Positions 7,707 to 63,049 of a DNA stretch of 64,000 nucleotides are shown here, piece after piece; positions within the stretch are counted from its first letter, which is position 1; the number at the start of each line of letters is the position of its first letter. Made by a program: the position numbers and the translations under genes. Below the pieces are notes generated by a model. That model did no database searches. It saw only the letters and a list, made by a program, of their open reading frames with translations, and was not told the DNA's origin. This DNA comes from Flavobacterium cauense R2A-7 (GTDB lineage Bacteria; Bacteroidota; Bacteroidia; Flavobacteriales; Flavobacteriaceae). Location: NCBI RefSeq assembly GCF_000498475.1, contig NZ_AVBI01000024.1:1-64000 (forward strand). The letters are read 5' to 3'.

Positions 7707-7753
7707 TATAAGGTTTTAAAAATGGAAGTGTGTAAAGAAAAAGATTTGTTTTC

Positions 7754-7831
7754 TAGCCCTGATGGGAGCGACATCCTTTTTCGGTCATTGCGGCTCTCGA
7801 AAGGATCGGAAAAGATATAGCGGACAGCAGG
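7754..7831 (+). repeat. Interspersed structured element, copy A
   Basis: This begins TAGCCCTGATGGGAG and ends CGGACAGCAGG, with a variable hairpin between (7776-7786 pairing with 7804-7814, including two wobble pairs). Similar starts and ends with different but still paired hairpins occur at 11195-11266, 22894-22949 and 38543-38620. It lies between the convergent surface protein and aminotransferase genes. It resembles an abundant Flavobacteriaceae intergenic element, possibly the Rfam Flavo-1 RNA family; that name is from memory and unverified. Confidence 0.7.
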
Positions 7832-7875
7832 AGTAAAGGTCTTCTGAAATAGAAAACGCGTTGCTGCTTAAAATA

Positions 7876-11124: not shown

Positions 11125-11194
11125 CAGATATAATTACAAAAAGCGTACCAAAGTTTTTGGAGCGAAAGTTTCGGGCTTTTCCGTAAACCATTTT

Positions 11195-11266
11195 CCCGCT
11201 GTACGTTACATCTTTTATTTCGTTAAAAGTAACGAAATAAAAGGATTTCCACTGCCATCGGGGCTA
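11195..11266 (-). repeat. Interspersed structured element, copy B
   Basis: Read on the minus strand it runs from TAGCCCCGATGGCAGTGG to CGTACAGCGGG. The central hairpin is a perfect 14-bp stem (11212-11225 with 11230-11243) with a 4-base loop. A conserved downstream tail extends to a GCTCC at about 11159. It lies in the valS leader, opposite in direction to valS. Confidence 0.75.
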
Positions 11267-11363
11267 TTAAGGAAACCATTTGTCTTTTTGTAAGCATAGT
11301 AAGAAAAAGTATTGCGGTACAACACGATTGAATCCGTATAACCAAATAACCGAAGAAACGAAT

Positions 11364-22819: not shown

Positions 22820-22893
22820 TACTATAATTTTCTTTCGGTTAATTCAAAAATGAAGCGGAATTAGACATTCAAAAAGTTTTAAAGTCGGCTCTA

Positions 22894-22985
22894 TAGCCCT
22901 GATGGGAGTGTTATCCTTTTGTGAAACAAAAGATATAACGTACAGCAGGAACAAGGATTCTAAAGAAGCCCGAACCTTTCGCTCC
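22894..22985 (+). repeat. Interspersed structured element, copy C
   Basis: This starts TAGCCCTGATGGGAG and reaches CGTACAGCAGG at 22949; the tail AAGCCCGAACCTTTCGCTCC ends at 22985. The central hairpin is short (CTTTTGT at 22916-22922 pairing with ACAAAAG at 22926-22932). It occupies the gap between the NUDIX gene and the helicase gene, in the same direction as both. Confidence 0.75.
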
Positions 22986-38482: not shown

Positions 38483-38542
38483 TTTTTTAAAACCAAATAA
38501 AGTAGTCAGAATATGATAACAGATACAAAAAGGACGTCTCAA

Positions 38543-38656
38543 TAGCCCCGATGGGAGTGGCATCCTTTTTTGGTGACTGAGGCTCTCGAAGTCACCAAAA
38601 AAGATAAAACGGACAGCGGGAAAATGGATTCCAAATAGGCCCAAGCCATTCGCTCC
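38543..38656 (+). repeat. Interspersed structured element, copy D
   Basis: The best preserved copy. TAGCCCCGATGGGAG at the start and CGGACAGCGGG at 38610-38620 flank a perfect 14-bp hairpin (38565-38578 with 38590-38603). The tail ends GCCATTCGCTCC at 38656. It is oriented against both flanking genes (sirtuin and anti-sigma factor, minus strand) and fills most of the gap between them. Confidence 0.8.
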
Positions 38657-49057: not shown

Positions 49058-49933
49058 TTATTTTAGCCAAACTTCTGCTGGCATTCCTGTTTTTAAACTT
49101 CCGTCATTTTTAACGGCTACTTTTACTGCATACACCAAATTAGCTCTTTCTTCTTTGGTTTGGATAACTTTTGGCGTGAATTCGGCTTGAGCGCTAATCC
49201 AAATGATATTTCCTTCGTATTTTTTTGTATTGTTTTCCGCATCAATGGCTACGATAACTTTTTGTCCGATTTTGATTTGTGCCAATTGGGTTTCGGTCAC
49301 ATAGACGCGTAATTCCATTTCGCTTAAATTGGCGATTTTGTATAAAGGTTTGCCAAAAGCTGTGATTTCAGAAGGTTCTGCGTATTTCGTTAAAACGGTT
49401 CCATGGACTGGATTATTGATTTTTGATTTCTTTATTTGGTCGTCTAATTTTTCAATTTGGACTTTAATTGCTTTTATTTCGTTTAAAATTGGTGCATTTT
49501 GTGTTTGTACACTGCTGATTTGTTTTTCGATGACTTTTACTTTTCCGTCAATTTCGTCAATTTGTCTTTTGGTTGCGGCATTTTCGGCAAACATATTTTG
49601 GATTCTGTTTTGTTCGATTTTAGCGGTTTTCAGTTGTTCGTTTAAAACATTTATTTGCGACAACACCGAAGCCGATTTGGATTGAACCGTTTCAATGGAA
49701 GCTTTAAGCTGTTCTCGGTTATAATGTATTTGCAACGTATCAATCAAACCCACAAGCGATCCTTTTTTAAGTTGGGCACCTTCTTCTACATTTAAAAACT
49801 CAATTTTTCCATTAGATTCGGAAGAAACGATGATTTCTGTAGCTTCAAAATTGCCATAAGCATCGGCTTTTTGGTTGTTTTTATTGCAACTTATTATTGT
49901 AATTGCCGTAAGTAGAATTCCTATTTTTTTCAT
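49058..49933 (-). CDS. HlyD-family periplasmic adaptor (YbhG-like)
   Basis: A 291-residue membrane-fusion protein linking the ABC permeases to the outer-membrane channel. It starts with a lipoprotein-type signal (ITIISC, Cys at about 16). The biotinyl-lipoyl halves (about 30-65 and 165-195) flank a long coiled-coil hairpin (about 70-160, EQLKASIETVQSKSA...). A beta-barrel domain follows near the C-terminus. The order TolC, HlyD, ABC subunits matches a tripartite efflux pump. Confidence 0.92.
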   Translation of the reverse strand: MKKIGILLTAITIISCNKNNQKADAYGNFEATEIIVSSESNGKIEFLNVEEGAQLKKGSLVGLIDTLQIHYNREQLKASIETVQSKSASVLSQINVLNEQLKTAKIEQNRIQNMFAENAATKRQIDEIDGKVKVIEKQISSVQTQNAPILNEIKAIKVQIEKLDDQIKKSKINNPVHGTVLTKYAEPSEITAFGKPLYKIANLSEMELRVYVTETQLAQIKIGQKVIVAIDAENNTKKYEGNIIWISAQAEFTPKVIQTKEERANLVYAVKVAVKNDGSLKTGMPAEVWLK

Positions 49934-49943
49934 GGTATATGCT

Positions 49944-51200
49944 TTAAATTCCTTTTATAATTTGGTGATTCGCTTTGGCTAATTGCAATTGAATCTGATG
50001 TGTTTTTTCGGTTATTTTTGATTCGAAAAGTTGGGTAACTTCGTTTAAATAATCAGAAGAAGTGATTACTCCGTTTTTCATTTGCGCTTCAGCCGAACGA
50101 ACAATTTTTTCTCGTAATTGGATAATTTCTTTATCCGATTTTAGTTGGGTTTCAATTTTTCCGATTTCAAAATTGATTTCTTGCAAATTCCGTTTTTGAT
50201 TTACTTCAAAGGTTTCCTTTTCAGAAGCAACGATTTGTTTTGAAATTTCCAGTACTTCTTTTTCTTTTTTTGTTTTGTTCCAATCGAATAAGGTCCAATT
50301 CAATTTTATTCCCGTCATGTAAAAGGCTTCAAATGAATTATTTAACATGTTCAAGGCGGGATTTCCGTAGCCACCTTGTAAAAAAGCGTTTAGTTTTGGT
50401 GCATTGTTGGTAGCGATTACTTTTTGTGACGTTTCGATTTGTTGTTTTTGTAATTCAAATAGGTCTAATTCTGGACGATTAACTTCGTTTATGGAAGAGA
50501 AATTTTCTGGAATTGCCAACTTTGCGTTCGTATTAAATGCAGTTGCTGAAAGTTCTTCTAAGTGCTGCCAAAGTTTGAGTTGGTCGTATTTCACATCATT
50601 TACTTGTTGGTTGATTTTGATGATTTCGGCCTCTATCACTTGTTCCGATGCTGGTAAAACCGCTCCAAATTTTACGGCTACTTGTATTTCTTTACTTTTT
50701 TCTTGAAGTAACTTTCGTTTCGTCAATAATAATTCTTCTTTTTCTTGACCTAATAAGAGTCCAAAATAATACTGATTGACGAAGTTTTTTAATTGGTACA
50801 AATTAATATCTACAAGTTTTTGTTGGGCTTTTATTTGCGATGCTTTGAGTTGGGTTTGCGCTTTGATGATCCCGCCATTGTAAATCAATTGGTTAACATC
50901 AATGGTGGCTCTGTATTGGTCTTTATTCAGAGGATCGATAGTCGTGTTAGGCATTGAAAAGGGTACTTGAGTGACTTCCGATTGGTAAGTAGCCTGTGCG
51001 TTTAATGCTACTTTTGGTAATCTGTCTTTTGATAAAATTTCTGAATGTAATTCCGATTGGTTTTGTAACAAACGGTTTTGTTTTGCCAATGGATAGTTCT
51101 TTTCTACCAACTCATAGCATTTTTCGAGCGTTAGTTTTTCCTGAGCCCAAATAGTTGGAGCTGTCAAGAGTAAGAGTATTTGAAAAATTTTTTTCATCAC
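49944..51200 (-). CDS. TolC-family outer-membrane efflux protein
   Basis: A 418-residue outer-membrane channel. A signal peptide (about 1-19, ending IWAQ) is followed by two OEP repeats rich in long helices (LTLEKCYELVEKNYPLAKQ at the start and EKIVRSAEAQMKNGVITSSDYL near 375-395). It lies 10 bases upstream of the HlyD gene and overlaps the TetR gene by four bases, so regulator and pump are one transcript. Confidence 0.93.
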   Translation of the reverse strand: MMKKIFQILLLLTAPTIWAQEKLTLEKCYELVEKNYPLAKQNRLLQNQSELHSEILSKDRLPKVALNAQATYQSEVTQVPFSMPNTTIDPLNKDQYRATIDVNQLIYNGGIIKAQTQLKASQIKAQQKLVDINLYQLKNFVNQYYFGLLLGQEKEELLLTKRKLLQEKSKEIQVAVKFGAVLPASEQVIEAEIIKINQQVNDVKYDQLKLWQHLEELSATAFNTNAKLAIPENFSSINEVNRPELDLFELQKQQIETSQKVIATNNAPKLNAFLQGGYGNPALNMLNNSFEAFYMTGIKLNWTLFDWNKTKKEKEVLEISKQIVASEKETFEVNQKRNLQEINFEIGKIETQLKSDKEIIQLREKIVRSAEAQMKNGVITSSDYLNEVTQLFESKITEKTHQIQLQLAKANHQIIKGI

Positions 51201-51790
51201 TTTTTAATTGCGTTGATAATTTGTTCCGAGATGTGGATTTTTCGTTCTTTCATTAATTGAAAGAATTCGTCATTAGAAATATTAATAATTCCTTTCACTA
51301 GGTTTTGTGCGGCAAAAGGAAAAGCAGTCATAGCAAAAATATCCAAGAGCAATTGCTTAGGTGAAATTGGTTTAATAATGCCCAATTCAATTTCGCTTTC
51401 AATTTGCTTGAGTAATTTCGTAGGATCCGGTCGTTTTTCATCTTTTAGAAATTTAGCCACAAATTCAGGATTGTTATTCATTTCCTGAATGATGAATTGG
51501 GGCAAAAAAGGATACTCCATGACAAATGAAATATAACTGTCCGTGAACTTCTTAATTTTTTCAAATAAAGCTTCGTCCGAGTTGAATATTCCATTGATTT
51601 GTGGGGCTAATTTTCCAAAAGCATTCATGAAAACTGCTTCAAACAATTTTTCTTTGCTTCTGAAAAAGTAATGTAGCATGGCTTTGTTTATTTCTGCTTC
51701 ATCGGCTATTTCCTGCATTCTGGCTCCTGTAAAGCCTTTTTTTTGAAATACATTAAAGGCTGCTTCGAATATTTTTTCTTCGGTTGTCAT
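51197..51790 (-). CDS. TetR/AcrR-family transcriptional regulator
   Basis: A 197-residue repressor. The N-terminal helix-turn-helix (about 1-50) reads KIFEAAFNVFQKKGFTGARM, then QEIADEAEINKAMLHYFFRS, KEKLFEAVF; the C-terminal half is the ligand-binding, dimerising part. It heads the efflux operon, and a palindrome lies 15 bases upstream of its start next to the -7 box, so autorepression of the whole cassette is likely. The inducer is unknown. Confidence 0.93.
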   Translation of the reverse strand: MTTEEKIFEAAFNVFQKKGFTGARMQEIADEAEINKAMLHYFFRSKEKLFEAVFMNAFGKLAPQINGIFNSDEALFEKIKKFTDSYISFVMEYPFLPQFIIQEMNNNPEFVAKFLKDEKRPDPTKLLKQIESEIELGIIKPISPKQLLLDIFAMTAFPFAAQNLVKGIINISNDEFFQLMKERKIHISEQIINAIKK

Positions 51791-51830: not shown

Positions 51831-52009
51831 CAAATAATAGTATTGAATCTTATTTTTTAGATTTTTTTAACACTAAATTAACCCTCTATCGTGAGTGTTT
51901 CAGAGAGAATTGTCGGTTAATGTAATCAGAATGTACTTATGAAATAAAATGAATCAGCAAAGAAGAATGAAGGATGTTGAATTTTTTAAAATTTTGCTAA
52001 TTGTATAAA

Positions 52010-52041
52010 AAATAAAAAGCCGAGGTGGAGCCCCCGACTTT
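52010..52041 (-). terminator. Intrinsic terminator of the small RNA candidate
   Basis: A 10-bp GC-rich stem with two G-U pairs is followed on the minus strand by TTTTTATTTTTT. Confidence 0.75.
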
Positions 52042-52076
52042 TTGGTTGAACGTGTAACCACATTGCTGTGCGTTCG
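52010..52076 (-). ncRNA. Candidate small RNA, about 66 nt, two hairpins
   Basis: On the minus strand a perfect -7 box (52081-52088) is followed by a hairpin: GAACG/CGTTC (52071-52075 with 52048-52052) with an inner CACA/TGTG stem closed by a GCAA loop of GNRA type. A terminator-like hairpin at 52016-52041 (AAAGTCGGGG with CCTCGGCTTT, two wobble pairs) and a T-rich tract come next. There is no reading frame. Start and end are predicted from these signals. It lies in the 443-base gap between the efflux operon and the Spt-type gene. Too short for 6S or SRP RNA and without their conserved sequences. Family unknown to me. Confidence 0.6.
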
Positions 52077-52080
52077 GGTA

Positions 52081-52088
52081 CAAATGTA
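52081..52088 (-). promoter_or_regulatory. -7 promoter box of the small RNA candidate
   Basis: The minus strand reads TACATTTG (TAnnTTTG); the expected start is near 52076. Confidence 0.55.
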
Positions 52089-52233: not shown

Positions 52234-53493
52234 ATGGTTAAAGATTTATTTGAAAGAATACAAAACAATAAAGGTCCGTTAGGAAAATGGGCCTCACAGG
52301 CAGAAGGTTACTATGTGTTTCCAAAATTGGAAGGAGAGTTAGGACCGAGAATGCAGTTTCACGGAAAAGATATTTTGAACTGGAGTTTGAATGACTACTT
52401 AGGTTTGGCTAATCATCCGGAAGTTCGTAAGGCAGATACAGATGCGGCAGCACAATTCGGAGCAGCTTATCCTATGGGTGCCAGAATGATGTCAGGCCAC
52501 ACCAAATACCATGAGCAACTGGAGAACGAATTGGCGGCTTTCGTAATGAAAGAAGCAGCTTATTTGTTAAACTTCGGTTATCAGGGAATGGTTTCCATTA
52601 TCGATGCTTTGGTAACTAAAAATGATATTATCGTTTATGACGTAGATTCTCATGCTTGTATCATTGATGGTGTTCGTTTGCACATGGGAAAACGTTTTAC
52701 CTACAAGCATAACGATTTGGAAAGCATGGAGAAAAATCTTCAGCGTGCAACCAAAATGGCTTTAGAAACGGGTGGCGGAATCTTATTCATTACAGAAGGT
52801 GTTTTTGGAATGCGCGGTCAGCAAGGAAAACTGAAAGAAATCGTTGCCATGAAGGAAAAATACAACTTCCGTTTGTTGGTGGACGATGCACACGGTTTCG
52901 GAACACTTGGTAAAACAGGTGCAGGAGCAGGAGAAGAGCAAGGTTGTCAGGACGGAATCGATGTTTATTTCTCAACCTTCGCAAAATCAATGGCGAATAT
53001 CGGAGCTTTCGTAGCGGCAGATAAAGACATTATCGATTATTTAAAATACAATTTACGTTCGCAAATGTTTGCTAAAGCGTTGCCAATGATTCAGACCATC
53101 GGTTCTTTGAAACGTTTGGAGTTGTTGCGTAATTCTTCTGAAATCAAAGATAAACTTTGGGAAAACGTAAATGCGTTACAAAACGGATTAAAAGAAAAAG
53201 GATTCAACATTGGGGATACCAATACCTGTATCACGCCGGTGTATTTGGAAGGTTCAATTCCGGAAGCCATGGTAATGGTAAATGATCTTCGTGAAAATTA
53301 CGGTATTTTCCTTTCTATTGTGGTGTATCCGGTAATTCCAAAAGGGATTATCTTGTTGCGTATGATTCCAACAGCATCGCATACTTTAGAAGATATCAAC
53401 GAAACGTTAACCGCTTTCGAAGCAATTCGTGAGAAATTGGTTAACGGAACTTACAAGAAAATTGCTGAAGAAACCACAGTTGACGTTTCTTAA
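52234..53493 (+). CDS. Alpha-oxoamine synthase family enzyme, serine palmitoyltransferase-like
   Basis: A 419-residue PLP enzyme that condenses an amino acid with an acyl thioester and loses CO2. The PLP lysine is Lys251 in STFAKSMANIGAF. The family stretches NDYLGLANHPEV, DVDSHACIIDG, VDDAHGFGTLG and VVYPVIPKG are present. Members include serine palmitoyltransferase, KBL, ALA synthase and the cysteate-using enzyme of sulfonolipid synthesis. The Bacteroidota versions with this N-terminus are usually linked to sphingolipid or sulfonolipid bases. The neighbouring GNAT gene supports a lipid role, but the substrate is not proved. Confidence 0.88.
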   Translation: MVKDLFERIQNNKGPLGKWASQAEGYYVFPKLEGELGPRMQFHGKDILNWSLNDYLGLANHPEVRKADTDAAAQFGAAYPMGARMMSGHTKYHEQLENELAAFVMKEAAYLLNFGYQGMVSIIDALVTKNDIIVYDVDSHACIIDGVRLHMGKRFTYKHNDLESMEKNLQRATKMALETGGGILFITEGVFGMRGQQGKLKEIVAMKEKYNFRLLVDDAHGFGTLGKTGAGAGEEQGCQDGIDVYFSTFAKSMANIGAFVAADKDIIDYLKYNLRSQMFAKALPMIQTIGSLKRLELLRNSSEIKDKLWENVNALQNGLKEKGFNIGDTNTCITPVYLEGSIPEAMVMVNDLRENYGIFLSIVVYPVIPKGIILLRMIPTASHTLEDINETLTAFEAIREKLVNGTYKKIAEETTVDVS

Positions 53494-53517
53494 TTAAAAA
53501 GCGAAATTCAAAATAAA

Positions 53518-53551
53518 TTAAAAAGCCATCTGTTTTCAGATGGCTTTTTAA
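53518..53551 (+). terminator. Intrinsic terminator after the Spt-type gene
   Basis: A perfect 12-bp stem (AAAAGCCATCTG/CAGATGGCTTTT, TTTT loop) is followed by T. Confidence 0.9.
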
Positions 53552-53681
53552 TTTTAAATTATCGGAAATAAATAAAGTTTTAAGACTGTTCGTAAACGGA
53601 AATAAGGGTTTCATAAACTAAAAACCGCTTTTCAGAAAGTTATCCGGAAGACATCGGGTTTTGATTGTATTTTTATTTAAA

Positions 53682-60839: not shown

Positions 60840-61076
60840 GATATTTAAATTTAATGGTTTACCTACTCGTATCGTTTTTCGGTTTTCACGGTTCTGAATT
60901 TTTGTTTGATGATTCAGTTGATAAGTAGTATCCAATTTGCGTGCCAAAAATTAAAGTCTCTTTTTTTTGAAGAAGTGAATTGTGTTTATATATGTGATAA
61001 TCAGCTATTTATTATTGATAAAAAAATCTCACTTCTTTCTAGAAATGAGATCTGTAAATTAAAAACGCTATGTTGT

Positions 61077-62816: not shown

Positions 62817-62909
62817 TGTTATTATTTGGGCGTGCCCTTTCAGGTCGGGCTATCCGTTGCAAACGAAGTTCACGGAACACAAATTAAAATAGAAATAAAG
62901 TGAAGTAAT

Positions 62910-62988
62910 CTTTTTTGTTACAACGTTTACGTTGAAATTTGAATATAGTGAAAACAAAAAAGGATTTCCACTGCTATCCCTCACGCAG
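62910..62988 (-). repeat. Interspersed structured element, divergent copy E
   Basis: On the minus strand it reads GCGTGAGGGATAGCAGTGG, then AAATCC, then a stem (62953-62962 with 62910-62919, CTTTTTTGTT/AACAAAAAAG) with a smaller hairpin (CAACG/CGTTG at 62921-62934) inside its loop. It keeps the AGCAGTGG-AAATCC core of the other copies, but has GCGTGAGGGAT in place of AGCCCCGAT. A further fragment (GGACAGCC) may lie at 63006-63013. Confidence 0.5.
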
Positions 62989-63049
62989 TTATACCTGAAA
63001 GTCACTGGCTGTCCTCCTTTTAATTTCAAATTTCACGCAGCCCTGTTTG

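Follow-up and report, generated by a model that had tools for sequence, protein, structure and literature searches.

The Locus

We have studied an intergenic element of Flavobacterium cauense R2A-7 that lies in a stretch of 64,000 nucleotides of contig NZ_AVBI01000024.1, referred to here as the window. Read along the minus strand, the element comprises the box TACATTTG (52088-52081), five bases, the segments GAACG-CACA-GCAA-UGUG-GUUACA-CGUUC-AACC, the terminator AAAAAGUCGGGG-GCUCCA-CCUCGGCUUUUU, and a U-rich tail. Its features, and the genes on its two sides, are the following (window coordinates).

52081..52088, minus: -7 promoter box TACATTTG, consensus TAnnTTTG (sequence and comparison)
52009..52076, minus: small RNA (sRNA) of about 67 nt, with its start placed at C52076 or G52075 from the position of the box; both ends predicted
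52071..52075, minus: 5′ side of helix P1, GAACG, pairing with CGUUC (comparative alignment)
52059..52070, minus: helix P2, CACA/UGUG, with the GNRA loop GCAA at 52066-52063 (comparison)
52053..52058, minus: GUUACA, the 3′-side linker joining P2 to P1, unpaired by prediction; GUUAC is invariant
52048..52052, minus: 3′ side of helix P1, CGUUC (comparative alignment)
52014..52043, minus: intrinsic terminator stem-loop with G-U pairs (terminator scan and comparison)
52026..52031, minus: terminator loop GCUCCA, invariant; the proposed pairing seed (kept in 67 of 67 aligned copies)
52006..52013, minus: U-rich tail 3′ of the terminator stem (sequence)
51197..51790, minus: TetR regulator, downstream (Pfam TetR_N); not part of the system
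52234..53493, plus: BioF/Kbl/SPT-like PLP acyltransferase, divergent (NCBIfam SerpalmtaseCFB, 295.8 bits); not part of the system

In the terminator stem, 52043-52032 pairs with 52025-52014. The TetR gene stands in a row with genes for an outer membrane efflux protein and an HlyD-type protein (49058-51790, minus strand). On the other side, a long terminator-like stem of 18 pairs (53515-53554) lies between the SPT-like gene and a convergent GNAT gene.

Taken alone, the sequence is only mildly unusual, and it is the comparison among relatives that is decisive. The fold of the whole element has z = -3.01, with 1 of 200 shuffled sequences as stable, and the 5′ hairpin by itself has z = -0.58 (47 of 200 as stable); three terminator-like sites were found in 4 kb, where 2.6 are expected. 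With statistics this modest, the view of the first-pass annotation, that a compact small RNA with its own promoter and terminator lies here, could not be settled from one sequence.

Distribution of the RNA

A blastn search of 299 Flavobacterium genomes with a query of 93 bases gave matches in 26, including the genome of origin and one spurious match of 24 nt (L065), which was dropped. A covariance model built from 16 of these first copies (R1) revealed a second and a third sequence group, and a second model (R2) was built from 67 copies. When R2 was run on the genus and on 21 relatives, 70 of 398 Flavobacterium genomes gave strong matches, at 71 places in all and with scores of 68.6-91.4 bits; the next match scored 36.8 bits. 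Blastn plus a covariance search, as proposed in the first-pass annotation, recovers the RNA in dozens of Flavobacterium species. The element in the window is matched at 52075-52009 with 83.8 bits by R1 and 78.1 bits by R2. Of the 70 carriers, 69 have a single strong copy, and the remaining one has two, both at contig edges. Our alignment took in 67 of the 71 strong places; those left out (G065, G195 and both of G069) are absent from all the alignment counts given below.

Beyond the genus we used R1 with stricter filters. All of 397 genomes of the family, except that of F. cauense itself, scored at most 35.3 bits, and the four strong matches in 196 genomes of the order were all in Flavobacterium. 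Nothing outside Flavobacterium scored above 36 bits with this narrower model, which could miss distant forms. Weak matches (25-37 bits), both inside and outside the genus, were treated as background; three of them that were read with their flanks (L176, L177 and L178) have a terminator and lack the GCUCCA loop.

Scanning named species genomes for the sequence pattern returned 93 stretches. The pattern was confirmed on re-reading in all 80 of those listed, with TAnnTTTG just upstream in 79. The titles of 78 of these 80 are Flavobacterium, another Flavobacteria, Flavobacteriia or Flavobacteriales name, or uncultured Bacteroidetes; the two records with other names are probably misbinned. These two, titled Bifidobacterium breve (L207, 3029-3071) and Candidatus Nitrotoga (L222, 4991-5033), contain the Flavobacterium RNA and are probably misnamed or misbinned metagenome assemblies. 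Flavobacterium paronense carries the pattern on three contigs (L223, L245 and L272), either a redundant assembly or a rare case of multiple copies. F. saliperosum and F. aquatile, both environmental species, are among the listed carriers. F. psychrophilum, F. columnare and F. johnsoniae do not occur among the 80 listed of the 93 stretches. A looser pattern found no copy in any of 31 genomes that had no strong model match, while recovering all three positive controls, one of them with an extra chance match.

In single-gene trees of the SPT-like gene, genomes that lack the RNA fall among those that bear it, which would mean losses or transfers; the two trees disagree with one another. Plasmid and phage collections, searched by blastn with short words, contained no match to the element, and thus give no sign of a mobile element.

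Promoter and Structure

In 66 of the 67 aligned copies (the exception, L052, has TACATTTA) a TAnnTTTG sequence stops 3-5 nt short of the RNA, and none of 2345 background positions further upstream has one. The sigma-A box TAnnTTTG is reported to sit at -12 to -5 in F. psychrophilum (PMC9723704), and by this spacing transcription would begin at C52076 or G52075, at the base of helix P1. The conservation of the box thus points to a predicted promoter belonging to the RNA itself, as expected of an intergenic trans-encoded sRNA, and the intrinsic terminator expected of such an RNA is found both by the terminator scan and by covariation.

The three sequence groups spell the same helices with different letters, and there are compensatory changes in all three helices. 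In a set of 48 distinct sequences, pairing holds in 96.4% of 938 cells, compared with 79.4% on shuffling, and 13 of 20 pairs change on both sides, compared with 7.6. The covariation score is 0.498, against 0.180 for shuffled and at most 0.096 for slid alignments. In P1, all of the cells with letters on both sides pair and four of the five pairs change on both sides in these 48 sequences. All four pairs of P2 do so across the groups (CACA/UGUG, UUCC/GGAA and CCUG/CAGG), as do 5 of the 11 modelled pairs of the terminator stem, with variants such as GGGG/CCUC and GAUC/GAUC.

Since the alignment underlying these 48-sequence counts had been fitted to the structure of the model, the count was repeated on an alignment made without structure and without gaps, using 29 of the 35 aligned group 2 copies, which are of equal length. 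Here 99.3% of 288 cells are paired, two-sided change occurs in 7 of 16 pairs, and the covariation score reaches 0.298 against 0.158; none of 500 shuffles was as high on any of five measures. In the 16 of 29 aligned group 1 copies that have an extra A the signal is weaker. No shuffle reaches their values for paired cells, two-sided cells or score, but 414 of 500 shuffles are as high in the number of pairs that change on both sides, and 460 of 500 in the number of types. When each sequence is folded singly, 54 of the 67 copies retain 80% or more of the model pairs and the other 13 retain fewer.

A four-base GNRA loop caps P2 in 65 of the 67 copies, with a five-base loop in the other two (L171 and L174). 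The parts that the first-pass annotation had named, a full -7 box, a hairpin with a GNRA-type GCAA tetraloop and a terminator preserved through G-U pairs, are all borne out, and comparison across Flavobacterium supports its overall reading of the locus as a compact sRNA equipped with a promoter and a terminator. We consider it almost certain that this is a real structured RNA gene.

Relation to Known RNAs

No family of Rfam 15 (4227 families) matched the element at gathering score, either in the window or at 14 loci of relatives drawn from groups 1, 2 and 3. With a relaxed threshold there were 11 sub-threshold matches, none near its cut-off. The best of these at the locus is GibS (RF04182), with 25.1 bits (E = 0.23) against a cut-off of 115 bits, and the alignment is strongest over the generic terminator and the A/U-rich stretch upstream. 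GibS is described as a trans-encoded intergenic sRNA that pairs with mRNAs at their start regions, and its authors report no obvious Hfq or ProQ in Bacteroides (PMC7366714). The Flavobacterium RNA resembles it as an intergenic sRNA of Bacteroidota that would also act in trans. However, GibS is depicted as largely unstructured with a long 5′ seed (PMC7366714), whereas the Flavobacterium RNA begins with a hairpin, and the latter is about half as long as the 142-position GibS model.

The Rfp sRNAs come from the same genus, and those described are, like the present RNA, independent and in some cases structured (PMC9723704). Rfp18 of F. psychrophilum is conserved beyond its species, and its deletion is reported to lower two metalloprotease mRNAs; it pairs through a third stem-loop (PMC9723704), whereas our RNA has two hairpin loops. 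The same account lists 85 new RNAs of F. psychrophilum, and candidates have been reported for F. columnare (PMC5395568). The present RNA is set apart from Rfp18 by the described architecture, and could still prove to be the same as another Rfp RNA. Among the open-access papers listed in our searches we recognized none that describes it.

Flavo-1 (RF01705) also gave no match at the locus at its gathering score of 42 bits. It too is a structured RNA of Bacteroidota, and is present in this genome and window, but it differs from the Flavobacterium RNA in its many copies, its consensus and its single long interrupted hairpin. Of 75 Flavo-1 matches in the genome 59 are over the cut-off, and four lie in the window (7751-7838, 22891-22956 and 38540-38627 on the plus strand and 11188-11269 on the minus strand), a density that looks more like that of a dispersed repeat than of several separate regulators. 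At 62839-62994 (minus strand) a match to Flavo-1 that is long but weak, with 28.6 bits against the cut-off of 42, is perhaps a decayed copy. Elsewhere in the window, DUF805b RNA (RF02914) has a sub-threshold match at 60860-60892 (minus strand, 28.4 against 35.6 bits, E = 0.00065).

Invariant Motifs and Possible Mode of Action

Two short stretches of the RNA are invariant in the 67 aligned copies. GUUAC, in the 5′ hairpin, has a mean predicted unpaired probability of 0.68-0.98 per position. GCUCCA, the terminator loop, is kept in every copy even though its closing stem varies, with a mean predicted unpaired probability of 1.00. An intrinsic terminator requires no particular loop sequence, and the invariance of GCUCCA therefore asks for another reason, of which a pairing seed would be the usual one. 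Rsa RNAs of Staphylococcus and LhrC of Listeria use C/U-rich loops that target GGAG sites; the Flavobacterium RNA, from another phylum, shares with them a short exposed loop in which CUCC is the likely pairing element.

We propose the following scheme. A free-standing gene, with a sigma-A-type -7 box, would give rise to a structured RNA of about 67 nt comprising the 5′ hairpin, a short linker and the intrinsic terminator. This RNA would act in trans, the exposed GCUCCA loop pairing with UGGAGC-like sites in mRNAs and altering their translation or stability, and the GNRA/GUUAC hairpin may protect the 5′ end or bind a protein partner. Hfq gave no match in this genome (the control found Hfq in 5 of 14 known genomes), and the remark of the first-pass annotation that Bacteroidota lack a typical Hfq fits this genome as far as it was checked. 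It is because of the missing Hfq match that the one RRM_1 protein matched in the genome (88 bits) suggests itself as the partner. RbpB, an RRM-1 protein, is described as binding sRNAs in Bacteroides thetaiotaomicron (PMC11697453). RbpB and GibS may serve as models of possible action, and not of family membership.

Most likely, then, the RNA works in trans, without Hfq, by base-pairing through the GCUCCA loop, which is predicted to be exposed. Action in trans rather than in cis we regard as very likely; as to whether the seed resides in the terminator loop, we are evenly divided. Instead of serving as a seed, the conserved loop could be bound by a protein.

The last point is the core of the alternative that survives best, in which the RNA would bind or sequester a protein, for example an RRM or ribosomal protein that recognizes the GCUCCA loop and the GUUAC-bearing GNRA hairpin, and pairing with mRNA would not be its main action. 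In its favor, the two stretches that never vary are short and lie unpaired within a fixed structure, and the RRM_1 match and the RbpB precedent can be read in the same way. Yet each motif is present just once in the RNA, unlike the repeated protein sites of known sponge RNAs, and we judge this alternative unlikely, if worth keeping in mind.

A more specific version of pairing is that the anti-Shine-Dalgarno-like loop (CUCC in GCUCCA), in bacteria whose ribosomes disregard most Shine-Dalgarno sites, may act on the few mRNAs with an extended site, for example rpsU (bS21), tying the sRNA into the translational control circuit of bS21. F. johnsoniae is reported to use Shine-Dalgarno sites seldom (PMC9976891, PMC8710568). 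We regard this as a long shot; if true, it would be a new kind of wiring, in which the target set of an sRNA is defined by residual Shine-Dalgarno sequences.

Neighboring Genes

If the RNA were instead a cis-acting leader or attenuator of the gene downstream, the mRNA of that gene would begin with it and the terminator would be conditional. In the window the downstream TetR gene shares the strand of the RNA and lies 285 nt from its 5′ end, and several group 1 species have rdgB next downstream in the same orientation. However, TetR adjoins the RNA in just 2 of the 26 first blastn loci (the window and L041), and among the loci examined the window shares the TetR-efflux cluster beside the RNA with a single close relative (L041/L189). 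The downstream gene differs both between and within groups. Strand was read at 56 loci with long flanks. The first ORF downstream faces the other way in 31 of 35 loci of group 2, 6 of 18 of group 1 and 2 of 3 of group 3; the other 12 group 1 loci have it on the same strand, and in 6 of them it starts before the RNA and runs across it. Because the neighbors change and the downstream ORF so often faces the other way, we read the RNA as a free-standing sRNA, independent of the downstream gene, and not as a leader. A leader of TetR or of rdgB was rejected on these grounds, and a cis-acting role for the RNA in general appears improbable.

The other neighbors vary as well. The SPT-like gene is found in the flanks of 22 of the 26 first blastn loci, one of the other four being the spurious short match, and within 3 kb, mostly divergent, in 26 of 28 named group 1 loci. 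The suggestion of the first-pass annotation that the location beside an Spt-type gene is conserved holds to that extent. It fails in group 2, where the gene is near none of 48 named loci and prfB and/or lpxD are near in 34, and the SPT-like gene is therefore not part of the system. In group 3, rdgB is near in three of four named loci (gene names by NCBIfam), and it is also near in 17 of the 28 loci of group 1, pointing to an older place in common; in the two group 3 genomes that carry the SPT-like gene and the RNA on one contig, the two are 16-18 kb apart.

UGGAGC, the complement of the loop and the one complementary site examined, occurs at the promoter of the SPT-like gene in the window; it is present there in 3 of 29 group 1 loci and in 1 of 27 mixed-group loci. 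Regulation of the adjacent SPT-like gene by the RNA was considered and rejected, since UGGAGC is present in so few loci, the group 2 RNAs are elsewhere and those of group 3 are at the distance given above. The gene itself occurs in 27 of 29 genomes of the genus searched, with or without the RNA. Its score with the best NCBIfam model, SerpalmtaseCFB, is below the cut-off for a serine palmitoyltransferase (295.8 against 640 bits); the enzyme may instead belong elsewhere among the alpha-oxoamine synthases, for instance as the cysteate acyltransferase that serves sulfonolipid synthesis.

Coding Potential

We also considered a small peptide gene, in which the ATG in the group 1 hairpin (ATGTGGTTACAC...) would start a short protein. 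The sequence ATGTGGTTA, containing this ATG, is present in all 29 aligned group 1 copies, and some ATG, GTG or TTG frame of at least 20 amino acids begins inside the element in 41 of the 67 copies; in the window a mechanical TTG frame of 46 amino acids overlaps it. But the hairpin ATG is missing from groups 2 and 3, the linker varies in length among the copies and so shifts the frame, and the changes in the helices follow base-pairing. By this comparison the element would contain no conserved reading frame, as expected of an sRNA; the first-pass annotation, which saw no frame, was right in substance, and a peptide gene is very improbable. That this is an ordinary terminator fallen by chance beside a promoter, without function, is a notion for which the modest single-sequence statistics leave room, but conservation with compensatory change across 70 genomes makes it negligible.

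Conclusions

Our alignments show a predicted layout that is kept by selection in a subset of Flavobacterium species, independently of particular neighbor genes. We conclude with high confidence, on comparative grounds, that these RNAs are a real family of structured sRNAs, apparently new and confined as far as tested to part of Flavobacterium, with a mechanism that we infer. As a whole, a free-standing sRNA that acts in trans by loop pairing is in our opinion the probable explanation.

In the literature covered, Rfp18 is the only Flavobacterium sRNA with a tested effect (PMC9723704). For the present family the structure is defined, the ends are predicted, carriers are named and a six-nucleotide loop is invariant, and the genome studied here has no Hfq match. 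Tests by deletion and of targets and protein partners can therefore start directly, and the RNA gives an opportunity to ask how a short seed would function in the absence of Hfq.
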